A stretch of 64,000 bases of DNA from Myxococcales bacterium (GTDB taxonomy: Bacteria > Myxococcota > Myxococcia > Myxococcales > Anaeromyxobacteraceae): NCBI GenBank assembly GCA_021806645.1, contig JAJZQX010000006.1, forward strand, positions 62,001-126,000, read 5' to 3'. Position 1 is the stretch's first letter. Each line of letters starts with the position of its first letter. Below the pieces are notes generated by a model. That model searched no databases. It worked only from the letters and a program-made list of their open reading frames with translations, and was not told where the DNA came from. Made by a program: the position numbers and the translations under genes. Of this stretch, positions 35,880 to 40,686 are shown piece after piece.

Positions 35880-36449
35880 ATGGCCGGCGACGTGAAGAAG
35901 ATGGTTGTGGGGTTCAACCACAACATCAAGCACAAGGGGAAGATGTACCACATCCAGACCGAGGACTCGGGCCTGGAGAACCCCCACCTGATCACGCACC
36001 TCTTCGTCGGCGGCAACATCCTCGCCTCGAAGAAGACCTCCTATGCCGACATCGTCGGGGCCGACAACCTGGCCGCGGTGGTGCGCGAGCTGATGGAGGA
36101 GCAGCACAAGGAGATGCTCCGCAACCTCATCAACGGCGTCTACGACGACGTCGACGAGGCCTACGCGGCGCAGGCGCAGTCGTTCCAGCCCGGCGAGATC
36201 AAGGCCGACGGCCGGACCGTGCAGCTGGAGCCCTCGATGCGCGCCGAGGCTCGCGGCGCCCCCCGGCCGGTCGCGCCGGCGGCCGCCAGGCCGCTCCCGC
36301 CCGAGGTGCTGGCCGCGCGGCAGGAGCCGGCGCCGGTGCTGCGCAACGACGGCGCCGAGACGCTCTTCGGCGAGGACCTGATCAGCGAGAAGAGCCTCGA
36401 CGAGGTGATCCTCTCCTACCTGGCCGAGGACATGGGCGAGCGCCGGTAG
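35880..36449 (+). CDS. Unrecognised protein between murI and ftsE
   Basis: The product is 189 residues. The N-terminal 110 look like a compact folded domain with conserved-looking features (VVGFNHNIKHKGKMYHIQTED, THLFVGGNILASKKTSY), a helical stretch LMEEQHKEMLRNLINGVYDDV, then an Ala/Pro linker (about 120-155). The acidic C terminus ISEKSLDEVILSYLAEDM could be an amphipathic docking helix. No signal peptide or membrane helix is seen, so it should be cytoplasmic. ATG 35880 is chosen because the folded domain begins there; the frame is open upstream in the murI shadow. It lies 42 bases before ftsE. Function unknown; a link to wall synthesis or division is positional inference. Confidence 0.78.
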   Translation: MAGDVKKMVVGFNHNIKHKGKMYHIQTEDSGLENPHLITHLFVGGNILASKKTSYADIVGADNLAAVVRELMEEQHKEMLRNLINGVYDDVDEAYAAQAQSFQPGEIKADGRTVQLEPSMRAEARGAPRPVAPAAARPLPPEVLAARQEPAPVLRNDGAETLFGEDLISEKSLDEVILSYLAEDMGERR

Positions 36450-36491
36450 TCATCTTGCCAGGGGCGGGGCACCTACGCCCCGGGGCCGCCC

Positions 36492-38062: not shown

Positions 38063-39175
38063 ATGCCAGCCGTCGCGCTCGCCGCCCTCACCGCGCTCAC
38101 CCTCGCCTTCGACCCGAGGTCGCAGCTCTCCACGCTGGAGCGGCGGCGCGAGGCCGAGGCGACCGCGGCGCGGCTGCTGGCCGACCAGGAGCGGTCGGTC
38201 TTCGACGAGCTGCGGCTGGCCGAGGAGGCGGTGGGGCGCGCGCAGCAGGACCTGGCCCGCGTCGAGCAGGCGCGGAACGCCGCCGAGCGGGCGCTGGCCG
38301 AGGCAGCTGCCGCGGAGGGGGAGGCCTCGGGGCGCTTGAACGCGCTCCTCGACGAGCTGCGTCCCCGGCTGGCGGCGCGGGCCCGGATGGGGCGGGCCGG
38401 CGAGCTGGCCGTGCTGCTCTCGGCGCCGTCACTCTCCGAGCTGGTGAAGCGGCGCAACCTCCTCGATCGGGTCTTGCGGCGCGACGCGGTGCTGGTCGCC
38501 GGGGCCCGCGACGCCTGGGCCGGGCGGGAGCGGGCCCGCGCCGGGCGGAAGGCGGAGGCGGCGCGGCTGGCCGGGGCGGCCGCGTCGCTCACCGAGCTGC
38601 GCGAGCAGGCCCGGGCGCGGCGCGAGGAGCGGGAGACGCTGCTGGCGGCGCTGCGGACGGCGCGTGGGTTCCACGAGCGCGCCGCCGCCGAGGCGGCCGC
38701 GCAGGCCCGGGCGCTGGCCGTCTTCGTCGCCACGCTGCCGGCGCGTGGTGAGGCGTGGATCGCGGGCGGCCACTTCGCCTCGCGCAAGGGGAAGCTCCAC
38801 CTCCCCTCGCCGGGGACCGTCACCGTCGGCTTCGGCAAGGTGGTCAACCCCAGGTTCAACACGGTGACCGTGCAGCACGGGCTCGACGTCGAGGCGCCGG
38901 CGGGCGCGCCGGTGGTGGCGGTGGCACCGGGGCGGGTGGTTCACGCCGGCTGGTTCAAGGGCTACGGCAACCTGCTCATCGTGGACCACGGGGACGGCTA
39001 CCACACCCTGATGGCCCACCTGGCCTCGATGCGGACGGCCATGGGCGAGGAGGTGGAGACCGGCGACGTGCTGGGGACCGTGGGCGACTCCGGGTCGCTG
39101 AAGGGGCCCTACCTCTACTTCGAGCTGCGCGAGAAGGGGCGGCCGGTCGACCCGCGCCCGTGGCTGGCGAACTAG
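38063..39175 (+). CDS. EnvC-like factor with degenerate LytM domain
   Basis: The product is 370 residues: a short signal-like N terminus, a long Ala/Arg/Glu-rich coiled coil (about 20-225) and a LytM/M23 domain (about 245-370). Metal ligands are lost. The usual HxxxD motif reads Q271-H-G-L-D275, with Gln in the place of His, and the usual HLHF reads Y350-L-Y-F353. E. coli EnvC likewise has LYFE and activates amidases instead of cutting wall itself. With ftsEX directly upstream, this should be the EnvC-type hydrolase activator. Its amidase partner is not in the window. The stop codon lies inside an 18-bp inverted repeat arm. Confidence 0.88.
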   Translation: MPAVALAALTALTLAFDPRSQLSTLERRREAEATAARLLADQERSVFDELRLAEEAVGRAQQDLARVEQARNAAERALAEAAAAEGEASGRLNALLDELRPRLAARARMGRAGELAVLLSAPSLSELVKRRNLLDRVLRRDAVLVAGARDAWAGRERARAGRKAEAARLAGAAASLTELREQARARREERETLLAALRTARGFHERAAAEAAAQARALAVFVATLPARGEAWIAGGHFASRKGKLHLPSPGTVTVGFGKVVNPRFNTVTVQHGLDVEAPAGAPVVAVAPGRVVHAGWFKGYGNLLIVDHGDGYHTLMAHLASMRTAMGEEVETGDVLGTVGDSGSLKGPYLYFELREKGRPVDPRPWLAN

Positions 39176-39353
39176 AGCGCATCCCATGACCCCCGGTCCG
39201 CTGCGGCAAACGATGCCGGCATTCGCGTGGCAGCCTCCTCCCTGCGCTGCTCAGCGGGTCATCAGCACGCCTCCGCTGCTCGGTCGTCGGGTGCCCCGCT
39301 CGGTGCTCGGCCTCGCTCGCCTCGCGACGGCCGGAGGTCATGGGATGCGCTCT
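39174..39353. repeat. 180-bp element with perfect 18-bp inverted ends
   Basis: The 18 bases at 39174-39191 (AGAGCGCATCCCATGACC) are the exact reverse complement of 39336-39353, with 144 bases between. Pairing can extend 5-6 bases further inward with one mismatch. The inside holds a perfect ATGCCGGCAT palindrome (39213-39222) and no credible gene. The left arm includes the last two bases of the envC-like stop codon; the right arm ends 10 bases before the predicted ctpA -10. No target-site duplication is visible. It has the form of a MITE-like or interspersed palindromic element, or a giant terminator/attenuator. Confidence 0.7.
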
Positions 39354-39363
39354 GCCATCGGGC

Positions 39364-39369
39364 TACACT
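39364..39369 (+). promoter_or_regulatory. Predicted -10 of ctpA
   Basis: TACACT ends 6 bases before the ATG at 39376. The -35 would fall at about 39340-39346, inside the right arm of the inverted-repeat element, and is not a good match. No ribosome site is present between -10 and ATG. Confidence 0.4.
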
Positions 39370-39375
39370 GCCGGG

Positions 39376-40686
39376 ATGCGCACCAAGCTCGTCCGGGGCC
39401 TCCTCGCCGCGCTGCCCGTCGCCGCCGCCTTCCTGGCGGGGCTCTCCCTCGATCACGTCGCGCTCGCGGCCAGGAAGCCCGACCGTTACCGCCCGCTCGA
39501 CACCTTCGCGGCCGTGCTCGCCCACGTCGAGAACAGCTACGTCGAGGAGGTGAACCAGCAGGAGCTGGTCTACGGGGCCATCGACGGGATGATGGGCCGG
39601 CTCGATCCGCACTCGGTGTTCATGCGCCCGGAGCTCTTCAAGGCGCTGCGTGACGAGACCAGCGGCGAGTTCGACGGACTCGGGCTGGAGCTGACCATCC
39701 AGGACGACCAGCTGGTGGTGATCTCGCCGATGGCCGACTCGCCCGGCGAGCGGGCCGGCCTGCTCCCCGGGGACCGGCTCGTCTCCATCGACGGCACCTC
39801 TACCCGCGACATGACGCTGGTGGAGGCCGGACGCCGGCAGAAGGGGCCGCCCGGCAGCAAGGTGGTGCTGGAGGTGATGCGAGACGGCTTCACGGCGCCA
39901 CAGCGGCTGACGTTGCTGCGCGACCGGATCCGGCTGCAGAGCGTGGAGTGGCGTGTCCTCGACGCCCCGCGGCGGTATGCCTATGTCCGGATCAAGGGCT
40001 TCCAGGATCGGACGGACCGATCGCTGCGCAAGGCGCTCGACGACGCCCGCGCCGCGGTGAAGGGCGACCTGCGCGGGCTGGTGCTCGACCTGCGCAATGA
40101 CCCGGGCGGCCTGCTCGACCAGGCGGTGCGCGTGGCCGACGCCTTTCTTTCCAGCGGGATCATCGTCACCACCGAGGGGCGAGACCGGCGCACCGTCGAG
40201 GTTGAGAAGGCGCACGAGAAGGAGACCGAGCCCAACTACCCGCTCATCGTGCTGGTCAACAAGGGAACGGCCAGCGCCAGCGAGATCGTGGCCGGCGCGC
40301 TGCAAGACCACCGGCGGGCCGTGGTGATGGGGACGCAGACCTTCGGAAAGGGCTCCGTCCAGGCGATCATCGACCTGGATGGGGGCGCGGGCCTGAAGCT
40401 CACGGTGGCCCGGTACTACACGCCGCGCCACCGCTCCATCCAGGAGCTGGGGATCACGCCCGACGTGATGGTGGCCGGCGCCGCGCCGCCGCTGCGCGAA
40501 GACGGGGTGGCCGAGAAGGACCTGAAACGTCACCTGCGCCATGACGCCGGCGAGCGGTCGAAGCCGCCGGCGAAAGGCGCCGGCGAGGACTACCAGCTGC
40601 GGACGGCGCTCGACTACCTGAGGGCGGTAGACATCTTCACGGGCGCCGACCAGGGGCCGGTCGGTCCGGCCCAGCCGGGGCGGTAG
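39376..40686 (+). CDS. CtpA-type carboxyl-terminal processing protease (S41)
   Basis: The product is 436 residues with an N-terminal signal or anchor (about 6-30). A PDZ domain lies at about 90-170 (GEFDGLGLELTIQDDQLVV, ERAGLLPGDRLVSIDG) and the S41 catalytic core carries Ser300 in NKGTASASEIVAGAL and Lys325 in TFGKGSVQ. Such periplasmic proteases trim or degrade wall hydrolases and lipoproteins, and the position next to ftsEX-envC fits that. ATG at 39376 gives a proper signal; ATG 39340 upstream would put the start inside the inverted repeat. The C-terminal tail after about residue 385 is charged and Pro-rich. Confidence 0.93.
   Translation: MRTKLVRGLLAALPVAAAFLAGLSLDHVALAARKPDRYRPLDTFAAVLAHVENSYVEEVNQQELVYGAIDGMMGRLDPHSVFMRPELFKALRDETSGEFDGLGLELTIQDDQLVVISPMADSPGERAGLLPGDRLVSIDGTSTRDMTLVEAGRRQKGPPGSKVVLEVMRDGFTAPQRLTLLRDRIRLQSVEWRVLDAPRRYAYVRIKGFQDRTDRSLRKALDDARAAVKGDLRGLVLDLRNDPGGLLDQAVRVADAFLSSGIIVTTEGRDRRTVEVEKAHEKETEPNYPLIVLVNKGTASASEIVAGALQDHRRAVVMGTQTFGKGSVQAIIDLDGGAGLKLTVARYYTPRHRSIQELGITPDVMVAGAAPPLREDGVAEKDLKRHLRHDAGERSKPPAKGAGEDYQLRTALDYLRAVDIFTGADQGPVGPAQPGR

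Follow-up and report, generated by a model that had tools for sequence, protein, structure and literature searches.

What kind of sequence is the 180-bp palindrome lying between an envC-like and a ctpA-like gene in this 64,000-nucleotide stretch of Myxococcales DNA (hereafter the window)? The initial annotation described it as a MITE-like element with perfect inverted ends, and proposed that it might end the ftsEX-envC transcript, control ctpA or be a non-autonomous mobile repeat.

The element and its gene neighbours

The inverted ends are real. The 18-nt arms at 39174-39191 and 39336-39353 are exact reverse complements, and a repeat finder stretches them to 39174-39196 and 39331-39353 (23 nt, 96% complementarity with 22 of 23 positions paired, 134 nt apart). 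At up to three mismatches, the arm sequence occurs at two places in the window, both of them the arms, where 0.07 occurrences are expected. Upon folding, the entire 180 bp, interior included, form a single long hairpin, with energies of -106.3 kcal/mol (z -6.3) for the plus strand and -119.0 kcal/mol (z -8.7) for the minus strand, neither of which was reached by any shuffle. The element contains no transposase and is too short to encode one. Neither strand of 38900-39600 matched an Rfam covariance model at E <= 1. The features of the locus are as follows.

38063-39175, plus strand: envC-like gene (peptidase M23 domain), the upstream neighbour, after ftsE and ftsX
39173-39175, plus strand: envC stop codon TAG, part of CTAG 39172-39175, at the boundary of the element
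39174-39353, unstranded: whole palindromic element with type-B arms, 180 bp
39174-39196, plus strand: left arm; the AG of the envC stop codon is in the arm or at its edge
39198-39329, minus strand: conserved hairpin core (model R1, 105.8 bits in the window's plus direction; the minus strand folds better)
39236-39240, plus strand: left-hand bases of the invariant mismatches, TC-C-TC (GA-G-GA when read on the minus strand)
39255-39269, unstranded: apical helix region, covarying in the family and decayed in the window copy
39284-39288, plus strand: right-hand bases of the invariant mismatches, TC-G-TC (GA-C-GA when read on the minus strand)
39331-39353, minus strand: right arm, reverse complement of the left arm (22/23)
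39376-40686, plus strand: ctpA-like gene (peptidase S41 and PDZ domains), the downstream neighbour

The left arm does take in part of the envC stop codon: it begins at the second base of the TAG triplet (39173-39175) and hence supplies its last two bases. As for ctpA, a start at 39376 is backed by alignment with the relative G002, and the start at 39340 given in the list of open reading frames falls within the element. Ahead of the supported start, about 10 nt past the end of the right arm, a TACACT hexamer (39364-39369) aligns with TAGACT in G002. This match suggests that insertion of the element may have parted a -10 from its -35. The geometry thus agrees with the proposal that the right arm occupies the -35 area of ctpA, but a scan around the right arm and upstream of ctpA found no sigma-70-type promoter pattern. 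Neither was an intrinsic terminator, that is, a hairpin followed by a T-run, found in 39050-39450; without the T-run, the idea that the element ends the ftsEX-envC transcript is unsupported, as is a regulatory role of the element in general. In this operon, it most likely now separates envC and ctpA as a passive hairpin spacer.

Distribution of the family, its arms and its core

With the window element as the query, its own genome yielded a single full copy, a 55-bp fragment carrying the same arm type and five places matching the interior only. The latter are elements of about 180 bp with different arms (AGTGCCCCGACCCAGGCAAGATG). A type-A query retrieved nine full or nearly full copies from this genome, at unrelated sites and several of them 97-98% identical, together with many solo-arm relics, and a covariance model of the core gave 12 matches there. 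One solo type-A arm, GTCATCTTGCCAGGGGCGGGGCAC, lies in the window at 36449-36472 (unstranded), exactly at the TAG stop codon of the gene before ftsE; it is a relic of a sister subfamily in the same gene cluster.

Matches were also found in 21 of 41 genomes of relatives, mostly to query positions 31-160, which correspond to the core without the arms. The core covariance model recognised at least 35 of 195 genomes of the same phylum, from at least 19 of 90 genera; as no more than 17 candidates were scored per genome, these counts are lower bounds. A pattern scan of the genome collection returned 89 stretches in named genomes, belonging to Anaeromyxobacter (A. oryzisoli, A. terrae, PSR-1), to Myxococcales or Deltaproteobacteria records and to one Syntrophaceae MAG; the core model gives low scores to the weakest of them. 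Viral contigs, phages and plasmids held no family copies detectable with the queries used. We found no description of this hairpin family in the literature searched, a silence that does not prove that there is none. The family thus spans Myxococcota and MAGs labelled Deltaproteobacteria, and its members have arms of about 24 nt around a core of about 132 nt, with no transposase inside. Element lengths were taken from cases with clean ends, since automatic extensions beyond about 200 overran into flanking DNA.

The arms and the core have had very different fates. Clustering of 123 arm pairs gave 18 arm types; within a type, 18.6 of 22 positions agree between the left and the right arm, and 9.5 of 22 agree between types. 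The family therefore has at least 18 arm types unrelated in sequence, yet pairing between left and right is kept within each copy. As for the interior, which could have been regarded as neutral filler between the arms (144 bp in the window copy), it is the most conserved and structured part of the family. An alignment of 21 core sequences contains 36 consensus pairs, 23 of which have changed on both sides. Paired cells amount to 96.8% (77.3 +/- 1.0 in shuffles), and there are 140 double changes, compared with 52.9 +/- 5.2 in shuffles and 11-19 when the alignment is slid.

Amid these covarying pairs, some mismatches are the same in all 21 sequences. They comprise T.C, C.T, T.C and C.T flanking the covarying pair 44/95, T.T at 54/86 and G.G at 39/100. 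In the window, the first group corresponds to T39236-C39237 and T39239-C39240 against T39284-C39285 and T39287-C39288. On the minus strand, these mismatches read 5'-GANGA-3' on both sides, that is, as tandem G.A/A.G mismatches, which are stable in RNA. The predicted RNA folding energy is lower for the minus strand in 21 of 21 sequences, and this strand recovers more of the consensus in 18 of 21; with DNA parameters, neither strand recovers the consensus better. We infer from these predictions that the minus strand may be the functional form. Given the covariation beside invariant mismatches, the core fold is probably under selection.

Insertion sites and candidate mobilising enzymes

In well-preserved copies, the elements are placed at stop codons with short flanking duplications, either TGA/TCA or TA within CTAG, so that the stop codon of the upstream gene is kept. 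Direct TGA/TGA or TCA/TCA flanks are found in 13 of 17 C1 copies (from the A. oryzisoli-type genome G021 and from G011) and in all eight C3 copies (from G006), the latter with one variable base before the arm. As tallied by eye, 21 of these 25 copies have direct repeats, and TGA is never paired with TCA. The recent type-A copies of the window's own genome (L010-L013) have TA/TA or CTAG/CTAG flanks, which are self-complementary and, taken alone, could belong to the repeat itself. Two sites filled in G006, an Anaeromyxobacter genome, are without the element in G019, another genome of this genus, the orthologous flanks being 87-97% identical. Of the two, L121 corresponds to a clean site in G019, at CCCTAG, and L117 to one that is less tidy on one of its sides.

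Among 98 distinct copies, about 70 of the 79 flanks that read into the element have a stop codon at the element boundary; with a stricter but cruder gene caller, 36 of 64 copies are at a stop codon. The surrounding genes are arranged in tandem in 36 cases (21 versus 15 by orientation), convergently in 13 and divergently in nine. Stops make up 8.8% of non-coding TGA/TCA occurrences. About half of the non-coding CTAG sites in these loci are already stops, however, and the enrichment is thus no proof of targeting for the CTAG types. Stop-codon placement may reflect either target choice or the survival of harmless insertions. At several operon junctions, the start codon of the downstream gene lies at the opposite boundary of the element. 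The family thereby shows a route into tight operon junctions that harms neither gene: the duplicated TGA keeps the stop codon, and C1 ends (..CCA) followed by TGA remake an ATG, as at L245. In the whole window, CTAG is strongly under-represented: dinucleotide shuffles predict about 71 sites, and 20 are present.

Which enzyme moves the elements was addressed by searching for insertion sequences that combine arms of type A, B or C with a transposase; none was found, the complete genome G006 included. Unpaired arm matches in G006 and G011, considered as possible insertion-sequence ends, proved to be relics of the element or a match in coding sequence. The window's own genome, G006, G020, G021, G015, G115 and G188 have no IS630 transposases (PF13358), and IS5/IS427 transposases (PF13340) are missing from the window's own genome, G006, G011, G015 and G036; several of these genomes have recent element copies. 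PF01609 transposases are absent from G020 and G015, and nine identical copies of one PF01609 insertion sequence in G006 have ends unrelated to the hairpin element. The latter insertion sequence (L327, L329, L334, L339, L343 and L345-L348) is about 1.4 kb or more in length and starts with TGAGAGAGCGTGAAGG.

The window's own genome encodes an IS1182-family transposase (NF033551, 310 bits) within a 1.7-kb insertion sequence (L326:491-2216). Its terminal inverted repeats are GAGCACCGATCTGCATGA and GAGCACCGAACAGCTTGA, and it sits at CTAG, the centre of the palindrome GGCCGCCTAGGCGGCC. The arms of L195 start with GAGCACCGAACAG, identical over 13 nt to the terminal inverted repeat of this insertion sequence, and those of L251 and L194 are similar. 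This link, drawn from one insertion sequence and a few distant arm types, provides a lead for some arm types and is no demonstration for the window copy.

Origin of the window copy and relation to known repeats

The type-B arms of the window copy are common to G016, G018 and G023 and are nearly single-copy in its own genome. The label of MITE-like mobile repeat is borne out at the level of the family, by its scattered copies, inverted ends and target duplications and by orthologous sites that are filled in one genome and free of the element in another. The window copy is flanked by TA on the left and TG on the right, and a target duplication is not readable. Together with the type-B arms and the decayed apical helix, this suggests that the copy is probably old.

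The same junction was compared in one relative of the genus, G002. Its envC is 83% identical, and the envC-ctpA junction is about 41 bp long, devoid of the core and of an intact element. This is no clean empty site: the alignment shows arm-like remnants on both edges, CACCCCCTGACCC and GGATTCGCTCT, that resemble both arm tips. With its look of a deletion scar, the junction would be as likely to result from internal deletion as from absence of the element. The search for further copies and empty sites, suggested in the initial annotation, yielded dispersed copies and, elsewhere than at envC-ctpA, element-free orthologous sites. The alternative named there, a single copy fixed in place in all relatives, is at odds with the dispersed family and with the missing intact element at the G002 junction.

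The envC-ctpA element is probably old, a palindromic MITE-like copy that is non-autonomous, was moved in trans and is now a passive spacer. A DDE-type transposase acting in trans would cut at the arm tips, and the arms would turn over along with the mobilising enzyme, which might be of the IS1182 type for at least one arm type. The core would be retained because its fold, with the minus-strand tandem G.A, is needed for mobility, maintenance or host tolerance. A fixed regulatory hairpin, at which the ftsEX-envC transcript would end or be protected, or which would control ctpA by covering its -35 region, appears improbable by comparison. Its location between the two genes, the strong fold on both strands and the TACACT hexamer aligned with TAGACT of G002 would fit such a role; however, there is neither a T-run terminator nor a sigma-70 pattern, the family is scattered over unrelated genes in both orientations to transcription, and G002 does without the intact element at this very junction. 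That palindrome-directed mutation, namely template switching in quasi-palindromes, keeps the arms and the core paired in an otherwise ordinary MITE, with no structural selection, is more improbable still. Long imperfect palindromes are indeed hot spots for template-switch correction, but this process should erase mismatches, whereas T.C, C.T, T.T and G.G are the same in 21 of 21 sequences beside pairs changed on both sides.

The preferred reading also has to be weighed against mobilisation through a recognised folded single strand, RNA or ssDNA, as is thought for REP hairpins and TnpA-REP; the core would then be what is recognised, and the arms a mere stem. The covariation all through the core, its invariant mismatches, the lower RNA folding energy of the minus strand, the free turnover of arm sequences with pairing kept and the fact that no cognate DDE insertion sequence was found for the main arm types all point that way. 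Nevertheless, duplications in both directions (TGA/TGA and TCA/TCA) are not given by a one-sided HUH/Y1 mechanism, and certain arm tips match the IS1182 terminal inverted repeat, so that we regard this possibility as doubtful. In its widest form, the proposal would be that of phylum-wide mobile hairpins recognised by a folded core, with tandem G.A on one strand, rather than by their termini; the ends and possibly the enzyme would be exchangeable, and insertion at stop codons would leave gene junctions intact. We consider that form unlikely as well.

Among known repeats, ERIC, NEMIS/Correia and RUP are about 100-200 bp long, have no transposase and mostly show terminal inverted repeats, TA termini, target duplications and transcripts that form stem-loops (Delihas 2007, PMC2229807). 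The present family resembles them in size, absence of a transposase, inverted ends, TA at the termini, duplications and the long hairpin. Unlike those repeats, which belong to other phyla and were compared by description, its arms change almost completely between lineages, it keeps an asymmetric core with invariant mismatches, and stop codons are its usual site. It also shares with REP/BIME sequences the presence of imperfect palindromes near gene ends, and the GTAG termini of REPs often give flanking ORFs their TAG stop (PMC3733652). However, a REP is a 20-40 bp palindrome tagged at one end with GTAG or CGTC, and the family, about 180 bp long with duplications at both ends and in both orientations, falls outside that definition.

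As for IS1182 relatives such as IS1272 and ISPse1, members of the IS1182 family are reported to target palindromes (PMC4923244, PMC5678879). ISPse1 has a 4-bp duplication (PMC3281130), and IS1272/TnSha1 makes none and removes a portion of its target hairpin (PMC4923244, PMC5678879). Some element arm tips share the terminal inverted repeat of the IS1182-family insertion sequence described above; unlike the IS1182 family, the hairpin element has no transposase, and the searches returned no insertion sequence carrying its arm types A, B or C.

The family is thus ordinary in kind, a palindromic MITE, and unusual in its conserved mismatched core, the turnover of its ends and its stop-codon sites. 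For most palindromic bacterial MITEs, the mobilisers are unknown and the relevance of the fold is usually unclear; in this old and diverse family, covariation next to invariant mismatches makes selection on the fold probable and points to the strand and the bases that matter for testing it. The turnover of the arms also raises the question of whether such a parasite can switch transposases. Some loci depart from the common architecture. In some elements of G021 (L163, L165, L166 and L172), the apical hairpin is filled or replaced by a second palindrome (CTTCGACTCCGGCGCGCAGCG...), giving hairpins nested in hairpins. The core-model matches L270, L284, L250, L206 and L280 have no detectable paired arms and represent decayed copies or a distinct armless form.
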